24,486 nt of DNA, from positions 1 to 24,486 of the IMG/VR virus record IMGVR_UViG_3300047585_000103. The stretch is one strand, 5' to 3'. The stretch comes from a virus. Below are positions 334 through 23,197 of the stretch, piece after piece. Every line of letters begins with the position of its first letter. The stretch's first letter is position 1. The position numbers and the translations under genes are program-made. The notes beneath the pieces were generated by a model that was given only the letters and a program-made list of their open reading frames with translations, did not search any database and had not been told where the DNA came from.

Positions 334-549
334 GTCCGCACGGAGTCGTGGGAAACGAACTGAATATAACACACCAATTGCGAAACTGACTGCTTTTACC
401 ACAGATAAGTGTAAGCAGCATGTTCGAGCATAACAAAAAAGCATAGTCGAAATGAACGATTAAGCTTGACGACTTTCGAAAAATGTCCCCTAGTACCCCC
501 AATAAAAGTCGAAGGTGAGGCTCTCCCTGGGCTGACCGTCCCGGCGGTA

Positions 550-754: not shown

Positions 755-871
755 TGGAAAAGCGCAGGTGCGAAGATTTCTGAAAATAGTTGTTGGCAAG
801 GACAGGATAAAACGGCATAGTCGGTCGCGTGAGCTTGGACGCCCACACGGAAATGAGGAACAATCACGAAA

Positions 872-966
872 TTTCAATCGGTCTCCTGATGACTGAAAGC
901 TGGCTTTGCTGCGCCGCCCGGCGTAGCTTTCCCCGCGTCCAACGGTTGTCGGGAGACCCATTGAGG
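872..966 (+). promoter_or_regulatory. Structured leader enclosing the ribosome binding site
   Basis: Bases 872-887 pair with 951-966: twelve Watson-Crick pairs, three G-T wobbles and one C-C mismatch (879/959). The core GGTCTCC (880-886) pairs with GGAGACC (952-958). Inside is a second hairpin, GCTGCGCC (908-915) with GGCGTAGC (920-927) and loop GCCC. The only Shine-Dalgarno-like sequence for the next gene, GAGG at 963-966, lies in the 3' arm of the outer helix, five bases before the ATG at 971. If formed in mRNA the helix would block initiation until opened, as in a thermometer, a riboswitch or repression relieved by a protein. No known riboswitch class is recognised. The pairing is seen; the regulatory role is inference. 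Confidence 0.5.
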
Positions 967-970
967 TTTT

Positions 971-1801
971 ATGATTAACATGCCACTAACAGCAACAGAA
1001 CAATCGCGGCGGGATGAACTTATCCAGACGGTCAAGGCGGGGGTCTTGAACGTGGGTGTCGCCCTTCGAGAACTGAGAGACTCAAAACTTTACTTGTCCA
1101 CCCATAAAAAATGGGAGGATTTTTGCCAAGACACATTTGGTTGCGGAGGAAGGTGGGGATATTATCTGATTCAGGCCGCCAATACTATCGAATCCTTGCC
1201 GCCGGAACAGGCTGAAAAAATTACCACCGAAGGAGCCGCCAGAGCGGTTCATTTATCGGCCAAAAACGAACCCAAAAAAGAAGAGGATTCAAACTTGTTA
1301 TCGGATAACATTTCCTCAAAATCTGACGCGCAAACCGTTGAAAATCAACAAAACGGTGTGAACAACTGTTCGCGTCTGTACTTGACAGAAAATGTAAAGA
1401 AATCCGACAAACCCGTGCAAAAGCCCTATGTTTTTCGTTATGATGAAACCGACTATCAGATACCCCCAAAATTGGTGTCGTTTTGGGACAAAAGGGACGA
1501 CTTGAGCCGGGATTGGATCAATCGGTTGCGCCAGCTTAAAAAGGAGATCAAAGACGCCAAGGAAGGAAACGATCCCATGCTGGCTCCATTCGTCACCCAA
1601 GCCGCCTGGATAAGTCTGGATGACTGCATTGCTTACATCCACGAACTCGTGCCCTACGCGGTTTGTTACACCTGCCAGGGACAGAACACGGCGGACTGCC
1701 GGGCCTGCAAAGGATGCGGCTTCATTGGAAAAGCCGCCTTCCAACGTGTGCCTCAAGAACTGGTGTATGTTCGGGCCAATGCGAACAGGAGGCCAAAATG
1801 A
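971..1801 (+). CDS. Replication-block protein with DnaJ-like zinc motif
   Basis: 276 residues. The N-terminal third (about residues 5-100) resembles a phage and plasmid family of helical proteins with an ALRELRDSKLY-type motif followed by KKWEDFCQDTFGCGG, thought to contact DNA. Residues 95-150 are a polar, Asn/Ser/Lys-rich linker. The C-terminus has Cys232-x2-Cys235, Cys243-x2-Cys246 and Cys249 in a CxxCxGxG setting, like half of a DnaJ zinc-binding domain. The ATG at 971 is preferred to the one at 980 because GAGG lies five bases upstream of it. The stop overlaps the helicase start by four bases (ATGA), so the two are probably coupled. The role is unknown; an accessory to the helicase or an origin-binding protein would fit its place. 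Confidence 0.8.
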   Translation: MINMPLTATEQSRRDELIQTVKAGVLNVGVALRELRDSKLYLSTHKKWEDFCQDTFGCGGRWGYYLIQAANTIESLPPEQAEKITTEGAARAVHLSAKNEPKKEEDSNLLSDNISSKSDAQTVENQQNGVNNCSRLYLTENVKKSDKPVQKPYVFRYDETDYQIPPKLVSFWDKRDDLSRDWINRLRQLKKEIKDAKEGNDPMLAPFVTQAAWISLDDCIAYIHELVPYAVCYTCQGQNTADCRACKGCGFIGKAAFQRVPQELVYVRANANRRPK

Positions 1802-3402
1802 TTCTGCGCCCATACCAAGAGCAACTCCGGCAGGGAATTCACGAGGCGTTCAAGGAGAAACAATCTACTCTGGTCGTCATGTGTACCGGGGGCGGAAAAA
1901 CGAGGGTGGCGGCGCAAATCATTTCCGATGTTGCTCCCAAGCGCACTCTGTGGTTGGTGCATACGCGGGAGTTGGTGTTTCAGGCGGCGCGGGAGATCAA
2001 AAAGTTCACGGGCATGGAGTGCGACATTGAAATGGCTTCCATGCGGGCCGATGCGAGTCTGTTTGGCCGCGCCGGCGTTATCGTGGCCAGTCGGGATACC
2101 CTGATCAGCGGTTCCGAGAAAAAGAGGTTTGAGAATTTCGATCCAAACTCAGTGGGGTTGCTGGTCGTCGATGAAGCCCATCATGCTACGGCAGACAGTT
2201 ACGATGACATCCTTGGACATTTCAAGAAAAATATCGACCTGAAAATCCTCGGTTTAACCGCCACTCCGAATCGTAAAGACGAATCCGCCTTGGGCAAGAT
2301 TTTTGAGAGTGTTGCGGGCACGTATGACATTCAAGACGCCATTCAAGATGGTTACCTGGTGACGGTGAGGGCCATAAGCATCCGCGCCGGGTATCTGGAT
2401 TATTCCCATGTCCGACCGACCGCCGGAGACTTGAATGGAGCCGATCTGGCCGCTGTTATGGAGGCAGAGGAGCCAGTGCAAAAAATTGCCCAGGCCACTT
2501 ACGAGGCCATGTACGGCATGGAGCCGGATTCCCTAAGTGAATTCCCGCCATCAGAATGGAGTTCTAAAACCGGAGGGTTCCCACACAAAAAGACTCTCGT
2601 GTTCTGCGTGCGGGTGCATCACGCCGAAATGTTGACCGCGGTACTAAACCGGATTGAACCGAATTGCACTCAGACCGTCAGCGCACAAACAGACCATCTG
2701 CTGCGGAAGAAATTCCTAGACCAATACCATAACGGCACGATCAAGTGCATGACCAACTGCGGCGTTCTTACCGAAGGATTCGACGAACCCGGCATTGAAG
2801 TCATCATTATGGCTCGACCCACCAAGAGCAAACCCCTATTCACGCAAATGCTCGGCAGGGCCACTCGTACGCTGCCCGGCACCATCGACGGATTGGAAAC
2901 GGCAGAGCAGCGCAAGGAAGCCATTGCCCGCAGTGCGAAGCCGTTTGCCACCATCTACGACTTCACGGGAAATTCAGGCAAACATAAGATCATCAAAACC
3001 ACTGATGCTCTTGGAGGTAATTATGAAGAAAACGAAGTCCAATCCGCTCAGGATGAAATGGACGAACTCGCCAAAGAAGGCGAGTCGGCGGACGTTCTGG
3101 AATTGCTTAAGCAAAAGCGCGCGGAGATTGCGCGACAAAGAGAAGAAAGATTGGCGCGAGAAAACGCAGCCAGAAACAAGATCGTCGCCAAAACCAAGTA
3201 CCAAGTCGCCCCGATAAACCTGTTCGACGTTTTGGACATCACCCCTCAACGGTCTCACGGATGGGACATGGACAAGCGGCTCAGTGAAAAACAGTCGGCA
3301 TTGCTGGCCAAACAGGGTATCGACGCCTCTCAGCTTCCGTACGCTGGAACGGAAAACTCGCCACCTTTAAGCAGTGCAAATTGCTCAAGGCGCGAGGGGT
3401 AA
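1798..3402 (+). CDS. Superfamily 2 DEAD/DEAH-box helicase, C-terminus frame-broken
   Basis: 534 residues as read. An ATP-driven nucleic-acid translocase of the phage SF2 type, probably acting in replication. Motifs: Walker A TGGGKT at 30-35, DEAH at 125-128, TATP at 154-157, and QMLGRATR (motif VI, arginine finger) at 350-357. A second RecA-like domain begins near the KTLVFCVRVHH stretch. A charged coiled region follows at about 420-465, then the LSEKQSALLAKQGID segment common at the end of phage helicases of this group. The start is the ATG overlapping the previous stop; the frame stays open further upstream but only inside the previous gene. After about residue 515 the protein ends in an unfamiliar 18-residue tail while the expected tail continues in another frame (3342-3560). 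Core function should survive; C-terminal function is doubtful. Confidence 0.93.
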   Translation: MILRPYQEQLRQGIHEAFKEKQSTLVVMCTGGGKTRVAAQIISDVAPKRTLWLVHTRELVFQAAREIKKFTGMECDIEMASMRADASLFGRAGVIVASRDTLISGSEKKRFENFDPNSVGLLVVDEAHHATADSYDDILGHFKKNIDLKILGLTATPNRKDESALGKIFESVAGTYDIQDAIQDGYLVTVRAISIRAGYLDYSHVRPTAGDLNGADLAAVMEAEEPVQKIAQATYEAMYGMEPDSLSEFPPSEWSSKTGGFPHKKTLVFCVRVHHAEMLTAVLNRIEPNCTQTVSAQTDHLLRKKFLDQYHNGTIKCMTNCGVLTEGFDEPGIEVIIMARPTKSKPLFTQMLGRATRTLPGTIDGLETAEQRKEAIARSAKPFATIYDFTGNSGKHKIIKTTDALGGNYEENEVQSAQDEMDELAKEGESADVLELLKQKRAEIARQREERLARENAARNKIVAKTKYQVAPINLFDVLDITPQRSHGWDMDKRLSEKQSALLAKQGIDASQLPYAGTENSPPLSSANCSRREG

Positions 3403-3560
3403 ACGTGAAGGATTTGACCATGAAAGACGCGAGCAAAATGATCGACATTCTGGCAAATAATCACTGGAAATTCCCGCAGGGTAAAGTGCCTGCACCATCT
3501 TCATCGCCGGAGCCGGAGCCTGTTCACGCTGGCGGCGATGATGAACAAAGCCCATTCTAA
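3342..3560 (+). pseudogene. Out-of-frame C-terminal segment of the helicase
   Basis: The frame ending at TAA 3558-3560 encodes RWNGKLATFKQCKLLKARG, then a helical stretch with SKMIDILANNHW and an acidic Pro-rich tail. From memory, phage SF2 helicases end this way, with RRW, a Lys/Tyr-Lys-Gln core and IDxIAxNxW after the AKQGID segment. It lies in the -1 frame relative to the helicase and starts a few codons after that protein's conserved part ends. The spacer of about ten residues usually found between the two is missing, suggesting a short deletion that shifted the frame. Its stop overlaps the primase start (TAATG), showing the frame was under selection for coupling. Alternatives are a sequencing error, a recoding site, or a 46-residue protein from the ATG at 3420. 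Confidence 0.7.
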
Positions 3561-4462
3561 TGGCCTCACTGCACAAATGGGTGCGAGTGTCGCGCCAGCA
3601 GAAATGTCCCATCTGTCAAAAATCAGATTGGTGTACCATGGCCGTGGATGTGCCGATTGTGTGCTGCATGAGAATTCAGAATCATCGGACCACCAAAAAC
3701 GGAGGCTGGTTGCATAAACTGACGGACGTAATGGAACCTCCAAAGCCGCCGCCAAAACAACCGGAAAAGCCGCCGCAGGACTTCGCCGCATTGCTTTCCC
3801 GGTGGGGGGATCACACCCCATTCTCTTTAGTGGAATCTCACGCTGAAACCCTCGGCGTGTCGCCTCACGCCCTTACCGAAATTGGCGCGTGTTATTCCTC
3901 TGATAATTCGGCGTGGGCTTTTCCAATGTACGATGCCCTCCGAAACGTGGTTGGAATCCGGCTCAGGAATGAACGTGGCGACAAGTGGGCCGTGCGCGGC
4001 AGCAAGTCCGGCGTGTTCCTTCCCGCCGCTCTGACCTCGCCAATTCTCGTTGTTGAAGGCCCCACCGATTGCGCCGCCTGCCTGTCTATCGGCCTGTGTT
4101 CCATAGGGAGACCTGACTGTAATTTTATTTCTGATATTTTTTCCTTGACGCCTTTTTTGGGTTTTGGTACAATATTGCCACGAAACACAGTTCTTGTCTT
4201 GGTCGGAGACGTGGATTGCAAGTTGAGACCTGATGGAACAACTTGGAACCCAGGCGGGGAAGGAGTCGAAAGACTGTCCAAGGCGATGACGGTCCCGCAC
4301 TACTGCATGACGACCCCCGGCAAGGACATGAGGGAAGCCGTCCGAAATGGGTTTAACCGTCAAATCTTCGATTGTTTATTTTCGGGTTTGGTCAGAAGAA
4401 TGCCTAAACCGATCACCCCAGCTACAGGAAGGAATGAATTATGCTTCTCGGACTTGAAATAG
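3560..4462 (+). CDS. DNA primase-like protein with zinc finger and TOPRIM domain
   Basis: 300 residues. Cys16-x2-Cys19 and Cys35/Cys36 form a likely N-terminal zinc site as in phage primases. A Pro/Lys-rich linker spans about 58-75. A TOPRIM fold follows: ILVVEGPTD with the catalytic Glu166, and VLVGDVD with metal-binding Asp217 and Asp219. These are the Glu and DxD of bacterial DnaG and T7 gp4 primases, which make RNA primers for lagging-strand synthesis. No helicase motor is fused to it; the separate SF2 helicase upstream may partner it. The ATG shares its first base with the TAA of the out-of-frame helicase tail, which fixes the start and implies coupled translation. A TOPRIM protein with another role cannot be excluded. 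Confidence 0.85.
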   Translation: MASLHKWVRVSRQQKCPICQKSDWCTMAVDVPIVCCMRIQNHRTTKNGGWLHKLTDVMEPPKPPPKQPEKPPQDFAALLSRWGDHTPFSLVESHAETLGVSPHALTEIGACYSSDNSAWAFPMYDALRNVVGIRLRNERGDKWAVRGSKSGVFLPAALTSPILVVEGPTDCAACLSIGLCSIGRPDCNFISDIFSLTPFLGFGTILPRNTVLVLVGDVDCKLRPDGTTWNPGGEGVERLSKAMTVPHYCMTTPGKDMREAVRNGFNRQIFDCLFSGLVRRMPKPITPATGRNELCFSDLK

Positions 4463-4487
4463 GCCAGAGAGTCAAGGAGTTGAAGCG

Positions 4488-5024
4488 ATGAACTTTGCAT
4501 TTTCAAGAGTTTGGGCGATGCCAAACGCGGATACGTTCTCTATTCCTCCAATCGGAGATTTCGTGAAACGCTATCTGGCGGAATCGGAAGTGAGCGTTGA
4601 CCCATTTGCTCGCAACTTCCGACTATCCACTTGGACAAACGACCTTAACCCGGACACGAAAGCAGATCATCATTGTGATGCCATTCAATTTTTAAATTTC
4701 CTTCACGAGAACGAAGTGAAGGCTGATTTGGTGGTTTTCGACCCGCCATATTCCAGCCGTCAAATTTCAGAAGTCTATCAACAAATTGGAAGTAAATGCG
4801 GCAAGGAGGAAACCCAAAACGGAAAGTTTTACTCCGATTTCCGCAACGCCATGATGCCGATACTGGCTCCCGATGCGGTTGTTCTGTCCTTTGGATGGAA
4901 CTCAGTTGGCATGGGGCGTGAGCGGGGTTTCGCCATTGAAGAAATTATGCTGGTCTGCCACGGCGGCGCACACAACGACACGATTTGCCTAGCGGAGAGG
5001 ATGGTTCAGCCCAGGCTTTTATGA
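4488..5024 (+). CDS. Adenine-type DNA methyltransferase-like protein, DPPY motif
   Basis: 178 residues. DPPY at 85-88, preceded by hydrophobic VVF, is motif IV of N6-adenine or N4-cytosine DNA methyltransferases. SVDPFARN near residues 36-43 and the TNDLNPDT stretch that follows belong to a short phage methylase family I recognise by pattern, as does FGWNSVGMG at about 132-140 and the HGGAHNDTI near the end. There is no obvious FxGxG cofactor loop, and at 178 residues the protein is shorter than standalone Dam-type enzymes, so no separate target-recognition domain is visible. GGAG lies about ten bases before the ATG. The stop overlaps the next start (ATGA). Likely roles are protection from host restriction or marking of phage DNA; the target sequence is unknown. 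Confidence 0.8.
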   Translation: MNFAFSRVWAMPNADTFSIPPIGDFVKRYLAESEVSVDPFARNFRLSTWTNDLNPDTKADHHCDAIQFLNFLHENEVKADLVVFDPPYSSRQISEVYQQIGSKCGKEETQNGKFYSDFRNAMMPILAPDAVVLSFGWNSVGMGRERGFAIEEIMLVCHGGAHNDTICLAERMVQPRLL

Positions 5025-5791: not shown

Positions 5792-5962
5792 ATGAATGCT
5801 TTGGAACACTGGCTTTGCACGCAATTCAGGACTGAGAGGGCGGTGATGGCCGAACTCCAACAGGAAGGAATCATCTCTGACGATGCCGTTTGGGCGAGAG
5901 ACGTGTCGGATGGCGATGCGGAGAACGGTGTGAAATGGTTGAAGGACAAGGCTACATCTTGA
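5792..5962 (+). CDS. Small hypothetical protein, 56 residues
   Basis: An open frame from ATG 5792 to TGA 5960-5962. The product is acidic and amphipathic, with MNALEHWLCTQFRTERAVMA as a likely first helix, then ISDDAVWARDVSDGD and a closing NGVKWLKDKA helix. Composition and spacing look like a real small phage protein, not a shadow, and nothing competes on the other strand. Against it, there is no clear ribosome binding site and the terminator hairpin lies only a few bases upstream, so it would need read-through or its own promoter. It ends three bases before the convergent stop of the 1436-residue gene. No function can be assigned. Confidence 0.5.
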   Translation: MNALEHWLCTQFRTERAVMAELQQEGIISDDAVWARDVSDGDAENGVKWLKDKATS

Positions 5963-8900: not shown

Positions 8901-10276
8901 ACCCCGTTTTCTCCTTCGCTTACTTTGATCGAATCATAACCCGCCTTCTTGAGGCGTTCGTTAATGGATGGGTCGCTTTCATACCACTGGAAGTTTAAAT
9001 GCCCGTCAGGTTCCAAGCCGCCTTTGACATTTTTATCATCAAGTATTTCCGCCCTCTCTTGAGGAGTAACCTTTGTCGCGTCGAAGGTTTTTAGTTTTCC
9101 AGAAAATGATTGTATTTTAGCTCCTTTTCTTCCAAACTTTCCCCCTTCTTCGTACTGGCTAGCTACTTCCGGGGTTTCTGATACGTATTGGACGCCGCCT
9201 CGACTTGGGCCTGTTTCCCCAGCGGCGTAATACGTGTGCCCTTTAACAGGCGTTACGTCGACTTCGGGTGGCCCGGCACTCGGTGGCGTGTCGGTTAGCT
9301 GCGCTTCCGGGGGTGGGCGTGAGACTTCTTCACGCTGGCCTTGTGTTTGGGGAGTTTCCCCTTGTTGTCGAAGTGGTGGCGTTTCACCCACTGGTGTCCG
9401 AACTTCATGTTCAGGCACGCTCTTTCCGATTGACTCTTGGCCGGCATCTGGAACTCCTTTCTTGACGATTTGTTCAACTACGGCTTTGGCGGTTTGTGGA
9501 AAGATTCGTCCCCCTTCAACCACGGATTTCATGGCCAACGGGGATTTGTCTATGGCCCTGGATAATCTCGCTGCAGGAGACAGATCGGGCATGGCCGCAT
9601 GTGCTCCCGTCATTCCCGCAAAGGCGGCATCTGTGATCAGCCCCCCTCCCAAATCCAAAATCTTTTTTGTGTCCTGCTGGTTTTTTGGCTTTTTCAGTTC
9701 CGTAACCAATTCCCCGGCTTTTTTGGCTCCGCTACCGGTCATTTGACCAGCGAATGCCAACGACAAAGCTTTTTGAATCACTGGTGCCTTAGCCGCTCCA
9801 AATATGCCTTCTACCAAAGGCCCAAGACCAAGCGTTTCATAAGTGAACGGTGTTCTCAATACGTCTCCCACTTCCTGCGCGGATTTTGTTGCGAGAATGG
9901 CCGCTTTCATGGGCAATCCGAGGCGTTTCACCTCATCTTCGGACAGTCCGTCAGTGGGTGACGGTTGTTCCGGGCCGACAGGTTTCATCTGTGCCGATGC
10001 AATGTCTTTGATCGTGTCCCATGCGTCCTTGGGAATATCGGATAGCGGCGAGGATGGCGTCGGAGCGAACAAAGAGCGGCGTTGCACCGGACTGAGACCA
10101 GAAGTGACAAGGGACGGAGAGAATGCCTTGACCGGCGTCGTCTTTATAGCAAACGGAATTGTTTTCACAAGGCTGCCAACAGGTGGAGGTTTAAATTCCG
10201 CAACACTGTCAACAGGTGGAGGCTTAAATGACGGTTCCTTTACCAGCGTGTCGGGAGCGGGAGGGGTGAATGGCAT
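5966..10276 (-). CDS. Giant polyvalent ejected protein with ADP-ribosyltransferase-like domain
   Basis: 1436 residues, last gene of the minus-strand virion operon. Large multidomain 'polyvalent' phage proteins are packaged in the virion and injected with the DNA. Order: a Pro-rich tail with two copies of FKPPPV (17-33); a region with short hydrophobic helices (about 115-275); a Pro/Gln linker (290-345); an ART-like domain (about 345-472) with [24 protein letters not shown] and [20 protein letters not shown], resembling polyvalent-protein ADP-ribosyltransferases; two copies of an SGIDPT repeat domain (509-580 and 810-881) around a helical stretch; then about 550 residues with hydrophobic helices near 1015-1060 and 1230-1330 that might enter the host envelope. 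The ART assignment rests on pattern and order, not on a proven catalytic triad. The position last in the tail operon parallels T7 gp16. Start ATG is one base after the upstream stop. Confidence 0.8.
7634..7849 (-). repeat. Second copy of internal SGIDPT domain
   Basis: Encodes residues 810-881 of the 1436-residue protein. The copies share R-x-x-SSGIDPT, then IGA-x-HI, a W-x-K-x-M-x-D core, GPKI-x-P-x-L and an IxxxS end. They are similar as protein but diverged as DNA, so the duplication is old. Confidence 0.8.
8537..8752 (-). repeat. First copy of internal SGIDPT domain
   Basis: Encodes residues 509-580 of the same protein, with [20 protein letters not shown] followed by a helix containing [14 protein letters not shown]. 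This IGAxHI plus GPKI pattern recurs, from memory, in many phage polyvalent proteins. It also holds a short alternating GC run (about 8732-8744) in an Arg/Ala-rich part. Confidence 0.8.
10177..10229 (-). repeat. Tandem 33-base direct repeat at the gene's 5' end
   Basis: Two copies of a 20-base core (10177-10196 and 10210-10229) differ by one base and are 33 bases apart. They encode the two FKPPPV units near the N-terminus of the 1436-residue protein. High identity suggests a recent tandem duplication or slippage, and copy number may vary between relatives. Confidence 0.85.
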
Positions 10277-22661: not shown

Positions 22662-22826
22662 ATGGTAAAAATAAGCGATGAAGCGCATAAGGCTCTGAAA
22701 AAGGCCGCCGCTGATAAGGGCATGACAATGCCGGAATTGGCGAGTGTGCTGATCACAGAGGCCCTTAAAAAAGGGCAATGGGAGATTCTTGTGCCTTGGC
22801 AACCCGACTGGAAACCCGCCGCATGA
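22662..22826 (+). CDS. Ribbon-helix-helix-like DNA-binding protein
   Basis: 54 residues. MVKISDEAHKALKKAAADKG gives a beta strand then a helix, followed by MTMPELASVLITEAL as the second helix. This is the strand-helix-helix order of Arc/CopG-type repressors, and the size is typical. The ATG at 22662 is chosen because the ribbon strand begins there; a TTG at 22620 would add 14 unlike residues and overlap the promoter region. A Trp/Pro-rich tail (WEILVPWQPDWKP) follows the fold. Its stop overlaps the GroES-like start (ATGA). Likely role: repressor of its own operon or of the divergent minus-strand operon, with the inverted repeat at 22641-22656 as a possible site. Confidence 0.68.
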   Translation: MVKISDEAHKALKKAAADKGMTMPELASVLITEALKKGQWEILVPWQPDWKPAA

Positions 22827-23197
22827 AATTGCTGGGAAATCGCGTTCTCCTACGCCGCATCGAAGTCCAAGAACGGCCCCACGCTTCCGGCCTGTTCCTC
22901 GCCGACCCATACGCCAAAGGCTCGTGTATGTTCGAGGTGTTGCAAGTCGGACCAGGCCGTTGGCTCTATCATCCGTTCAAAAAGAGTAAGAAAGTTTTCA
23001 TCAAACCCGAAGTCCAAGTCGGTGACGTGGTGTTTTCGACACACTGGCATGATGCCTCCGAAGTTCCGACTTGGCACAAGCCGGAGTATCTCGACGGCGT
23101 GGACGGGCGAGGCCGTGTGGCCTTGGACGCCCGGTTTTGTCTCGCCGCCTTTCCGCAACCTGAAATCCCGCAGTTTATTCCAAAGTCCCATATATGA
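22823..23197 (+). CDS. GroES/Cpn10-like co-chaperonin
   Basis: 124 residues from the ATG overlapping the regulator's stop. It follows the Cpn10 plan: LGNRVLLRRIEV as first strand, a mobile-loop-like ERPHASGLFLADPYAKG at 17-33 with the hydrophobic GLFL expected to touch GroEL, then FEVLQVGPGR (compare the family's GEVVAVGPG), and EVQVGDVVFSTHW (compare VKVGDRVLF). ARFCLAAF ends it, as ILA does in GroES. An insertion with PFKKSKKVFIK and a long Pro-rich C-terminus are extra; bacterial GroES has about 97 residues. No GroEL is seen, so it would act with the host chaperonin, as T4 gp31 does for capsid folding. Its place before the portal supports a role in head assembly. Confidence 0.78.
   Translation: MKLLGNRVLLRRIEVQERPHASGLFLADPYAKGSCMFEVLQVGPGRWLYHPFKKSKKVFIKPEVQVGDVVFSTHWHDASEVPTWHKPEYLDGVDGRGRVALDARFCLAAFPQPEIPQFIPKSHI

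Follow-up and report, generated by a model that had tools for sequence, protein, structure and literature searches.

In an uncultured phage, the gene that opens the replication operon begins inside a long, exceptionally stable hairpin predicted for its leader RNA. The phage record comprises 24,486 bases and was analysed as a whole (hereafter, the window). A single hairpin of 44 base pairs spans positions 862–976 and includes the start codon, with the Shine–Dalgarno-like GAGG (963–966) and the ATG (971–973) both lying within the helix and the latter at its foot. The occlusion of the start site in the predicted fold is well supported, and the hairpin probably acts as a translation lock on this gene. 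We tentatively propose, at a likelihood a little short of probable, the complete reading in which this lock is opened by removal or occupation of the 5′ arm, most simply by an RNase III-type cleavage.

Fold of the leader and accessibility of the start site

The MFE fold of the leader is identical to the centroid fold and has an energy of −60.8 kcal/mol, compared with −31.5 ± 3.5 kcal/mol in 200 dinucleotide shuffles (z = −8.4). No shuffle matched it in this comparison, which an earlier, sequence-only reading of the DNA had suggested as a check. Among 4,874 segments of 121 nt on both strands of the contig, the one carrying the hairpin is the lowest in energy. The outer duplex is nearly continuous (5 + 11 + 16 pairs), two 1 × 1 mismatches being its sole breaks, and is followed by inner pairs of 2 + 2 + 8. 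Calculated as separate duplexes, the middle 16-bp part has −25.6 kcal/mol, and the AU/GU-rich outer part over the start site −11.6 kcal/mol. The sequence-only reading had described the pairing of 872–887 with 951–966, which proved exact (12 Watson–Crick pairs, three G·U pairs and one C·C mismatch at 879/959), as did the inner hairpin and the location of the GAGG in the 3′ arm ahead of the ATG (Table 1). The size of the helix had been understated, because it extends from 862 to 976 and buries the ATG as well. A hammerhead ribozyme was rejected: CTGATGA...GAAA at 886–899 resembles its core, but stem II is absent between the boxes.

Table 1. Features of the leader and the first operon genes (positions in the window)
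Feature	Position	Strand	Basis or remark
Sigma-70-like promoter match, TTGGCA-17-CATAGT	793–821	+	3 found vs 0.3 expected in region; candidate only
Possible upstream ORF, from GTG829 or ATG853	829–978	+	Runs through the helix; overlaps ATG971 by 8 nt
5′ arm of the long leader hairpin	862–895	+	MFE/centroid fold, pair list
Middle 16-bp duplex (880–895/943–958) with enclosed loop	880–958	+	Duplex energy; putative cleavage region
Inner hairpin	908–927	+	8 pairs, GCCC loop; fold, pair list
3′ arm of the long leader hairpin, with Shine–Dalgarno (SD) sequence and start codon	943–976	+	Fold, pair list
GAGG, SD-like, pairs with 872–875	963–966	+	Pair list; 0.3% unpaired at 37 °C
276-residue gene	971–1801	+	Family with CxxC...CxxC C-terminus, usually beside this helicase
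DEAD/ResIII helicase	1798–3402	+	phrog_16, E 3e-72; PF04851; own AGGAGG

The accessibility of the start site was expressed as opening cost, i.e., the energy required to make positions −15 to +5 single-stranded. For the 276-residue gene this cost is 18.6–20.2 kcal/mol, varying with the flanks included in the fold, against 2.4–12.1 kcal/mol for the other tested genes of this phage, which bears out the earlier claim of a trapped ribosome binding site. It also lies above the 95th percentile (14.4 kcal/mol; median 7.3) of 395 gene starts from nine related phages. Deleting the 5′ arm from the fold, or letting a ribosome cover it, lowers the predicted cost from 18.6 to 5.4–7.8 kcal/mol, the level of an ordinary gene.

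Recurrence among related phages

Scans with single proteins retrieved no close relatives, neither for the 276-residue protein among viral and genome contigs nor for the helicase among viral contigs; one helicase search gave very distant helicases only. BLAST with the leader as query returned nothing useful from phages or plasmids. A terminase search led to a family of related phages. The family of the 276-residue gene, in which the CxxC...CxxC C-terminus is conserved and the N-terminus exchangeable, opens the operon in four phages, namely G000 (the window), G004, G010, and G018. The predicted model of the 276-residue protein consists of helical N- and C-terminal parts joined by a disordered linker (residues 101–150), and this structure had no match in the PDB. 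The nearest homologues are 20–28% identical, and their start codon is not trapped by such a hairpin. The homologous gene start is free in G004, G010, and 11 further homologues, and is trapped only in the window. Nevertheless, all four operon-opening phages carry a hairpin with z ≤ −7.1 within 320 nt upstream of the gene, at varying distance from the start.

Comparable traps were found in front of other genes. In G018, an ORF of 114 residues located just upstream of the family gene is trapped (16–17 kcal/mol). In G011, the trapped gene (286 residues, 21.3 kcal/mol) is non-homologous, and the base of the helix holds its ATG; by eye it resembles a replication initiator, without a family match. 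In L031, which lies outside the terminase family, a hairpin is positioned directly 5′ of the ATG of a related gene, whose value of 20.3 kcal/mol is the highest on its strand. The leaders of the window, G018, G011, and L031 have no sequence in common. Because the geometry recurs in dissimilar sequences, selection may act on the structure alone.

A hairpin scan covering 361 of the 378 segments of 90 sequences (1.38 Mb) identified 15 long unbranched hairpins at z ≤ −6.5, four of which end at the ATG of an ORF with 80 codons or more, compared with 0.8 expected and none in the mirror control. If the window, which prompted the test, is left out, three of 14 hairpins do so. At the looser cut-off of z ≤ −5, the excess is small (9 vs 5.9 expected), and among ten relatives of another, initiator-like gene (G012 type), eight lacked a leader hairpin beyond z −4. 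Taken together, the excess at the strict cut-off, the small excess at the loose one and the eight hairpin-free leaders indicate that the trap recurs and is not a fixed feature of the family. Start-trapping hairpins might move or re-evolve before unrelated genes that lead replication modules, in a single uncultured-phage lineage (window, G018, and G011), with a double-strand-specific factor of phage or host reading the structure rather than the sequence and timing the onset of replication; we consider this broader scenario improbable.

Several further structures were observed in the scanned sequences. Hairpins lie directly or closely 5′ of the ATG of a small gene in five terminase-family phages (L158, minus strand 5863–5940; L166; L179; G007; G010); this gene is apparently homologous among them and carries a motif like LLPKSxF. 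In L031, CGCTCGTCGCCGGTGTAACAACCGGCGGCGGG is present in two exact copies (3339–3370 and 3564–3595), the second of which is located directly 5′ of the ATG of a ParB-like gene with a TTT spacer. Two genes of G018 share a similar leader (42217–42300 and 43085–43190) consisting of a hairpin, CCACGCGGAA..., and ACACATG. From about 110 to 1 nt 5′ of a gene start in L213, the crossing inverted repeats GTTGAGTCAG/CTGACTCAAC and TGCGCCGGTCCC/GGGATCGGCGCA form a pseudoknot-like arrangement. Very long palindromes of 38 and 58 pairs are found in G007 (9311–9409) and G003 (22686–22832), respectively; the G007 palindrome is about equal on both strands and thus more similar to a DNA element.

Release of the start site and alternative explanations

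During transcription, the 5′ arm would pair with the 3′ arm and bury the GAGG and the ATG, so that the intact transcript would be poorly translated. We infer that the hairpin forms in vivo and represses translation. The lock would open on loss or occupation of the 5′ arm, and the simplest agent would be an RNase III-type cut in the 16-bp middle duplex. The combination of a weak outer and a strong middle duplex suggests a lock of two parts, the outer of which would be released by a cut in the middle one. After such a cut, the start site would be covered by the weaker, untethered AU/GU-rich outer duplex alone, and the opening cost would fall to that of an ordinary gene. In E. coli, RNase III acts on duplexes spanning at least about two helical turns, and processing by this enzyme affects translation at the lambda N leader and at the processing sites of T7 early mRNA. 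The nearly continuous duplex in the window reaches this length, as would be expected of a leader relieved by RNase III. Occlusion of a ribosome binding site relieved by RNase III has been described for E. coli adhE and lambda cIII (PMC5371410), and the lambda N leader and the T7 early mRNA processing sites are also cited as RNase III-related (PMC5371410). As in adhE and lambda cIII, a long leader duplex hides the start, which removal of the partner strand would free. In contrast to these systems, both the SD sequence and the ATG are contained in an exceptionally stable helix in front of an unrelated gene, and cleavage is a prediction. By this analogy, RNase III is a possible though less than probable opener. 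The window sequence displays no feature that singles out RNase III, and a terminase scan of genome contigs did not find a host. With the sigma-70-like match (Table 1) as promoter, transcription would begin about 30 nt 5′ of the helix, which is compatible with release by RNase III as well as with translation of an upstream ORF.

The latter would provide a different way to open the helix: a ribosome translating the upstream ORF, from 829 or 853 to 978, would unwind the duplex and initiate or re-initiate at ATG 971, so that the gene would require a translated leader. In all three trap leaders, an ORF running through the helix stops at the trapped start, with an overlap of 8 nt in the window and of ATGA in G018 and G011, and covering the 5′ arm reduces the opening cost in the window to 7.0 kcal/mol. 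Phage f1 provides a precedent: coupling of its genes VII and IX occurs at −4 nt, and a long hairpin immediately precedes gene IX (PMC12548453). In MS2, the coat and lysis genes are translationally coupled by RNA unfolding (PMC12548453). The window shares with both cases a hairpin over the downstream start and an ORF that passes through the helix and ends there, but its upstream ORF is short, lacks an SD sequence and does not exceed chance expectation. Shuffles produced such an ORF in fractions of 0.47, 0.32, and 0.40 for the three leaders (product approximately 0.06), and in 19–47% for the window depending on the start codons allowed. Furthermore, none of the three ORFs is preceded by a convincing SD sequence, the G018 ORF has no ATG, and ATG853 lies only 9 nt 5′ of the helix. 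Coupling through the upstream ORF is the foremost rival to release by cleavage, albeit an unlikely one. The hairpin could also be an RNA-processing or mRNA-stabilizing element that overlaps the start codon incidentally, in which case RNA stability, set by cleavage or by protection of the 5′ end, and not translation would be regulated. The strong hairpins of all four operon-opening phages, with their varying distance to the start and the free starts in G004 and G010, would fit such an element. The overlap with the start, however, is exact and costly in the window, G018, and G011, and hairpins ending at an ATG are in excess of expectation at the strict cut-off, which makes a purely incidental overlap distinctly unlikely.

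An element acting as DNA, i.e., a palindrome adjoining the replication genes that forms a cruciform, binds a protein or serves as an origin of replication, would be in accordance with the position of the hairpin between a long non-coding region and these genes and with the strong palindromes of the relatives, some of which are symmetrical on both strands (G007). However, the complementary strand folds to only about −45 kcal/mol (z −4.1 vs −8.8 for the coding strand), and the minus strand folds much less well in G018, too; G010 is an exception with equal strands. G·U pairs account for 8 of the 44 pairs of the hairpin. In the arms of six leader hairpins of the phage group, 21 G·U stand against 5 A·C (binomial p = 0.0012), counted with a scoring that treats both kinds of mismatch alike. 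The better fold of the plus strand and the prevalence of G·U over A·C in the arms indicate that the RNA of the coding strand is likely the selected form, and a DNA element is very improbable. The sequence-only reading had considered a thermometer or a ligand switch; neither idea found support. The paired SD sequence and start codon recall RNA thermometers of the fourU and ROSE type, in which the SD sequence is paired in the leader (reviewed in PMC4166951), but the window helix is far too stable for physiological melting: the SD sequence is unpaired to merely 0.3% at 37 °C, 0.5% at 42 °C, 1% at 50 °C, and 3% at 60 °C. Rfam searches of the leader, both at the gathering threshold and with the E-value limit relaxed to 10, yielded nothing relevant, in agreement with the earlier statement that no known riboswitch class is matched, and no conserved loop sequence or aptamer was seen in the relatives. 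A thermometer or metabolite riboswitch is thus extremely unlikely. An intrinsic terminator or attenuator before the operon is highly improbable: eight T follow directly after the G004 hairpin, but the UUUU at 967–970 of the window is itself paired and lies nine bases past the GC-rich stem, and a terminator scan gave nothing at the hairpin site.

The operon and the significance of the lock

The start of the helicase overlaps the stop of the first gene by ATGA (1798–1801), and its opening cost is 6.5 kcal/mol. With this accessible start and an AGGAGG of its own, the helicase could escape the lock, which therefore would not necessarily shut off the entire operon. The earlier suggestion that RNA folding controls all of the operon is thus plausible only in part: the two genes overlap, but the helicase has a separate ribosome binding site. 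An odd tail closes the helicase frame at 3402 (region 3350–3560), and an overlapping ORF (3381–3560) reads like a helicase C-terminus, pointing to a possible frameshift, either programmed or due to a sequencing error. Upstream of the operon, the window contains a non-coding stretch of about 530 nt (334–861), G-rich in part and located 3′ of a gene at 4–333, which looks related to L003 3323–3673. The identical 16-mer AACGATTAAGCTTGAC is present in the window (455–470) and in the L003 region 3674–4708 and is possibly a promoter or origin element. The motif also links the window with G001, and the remaining hits of a motif scan looked like chance.

The hairpin probably exemplifies, in new genes, a type of control already known, and is set apart by its extreme stability and by the recurrence of its geometry before unrelated ORFs. 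The three leaders with this geometry (window, G018, and G011) can be compared side by side. If the lock works, expression of the operon's first gene would depend on an RNA-processing or ribosome event, beyond the promoter alone.
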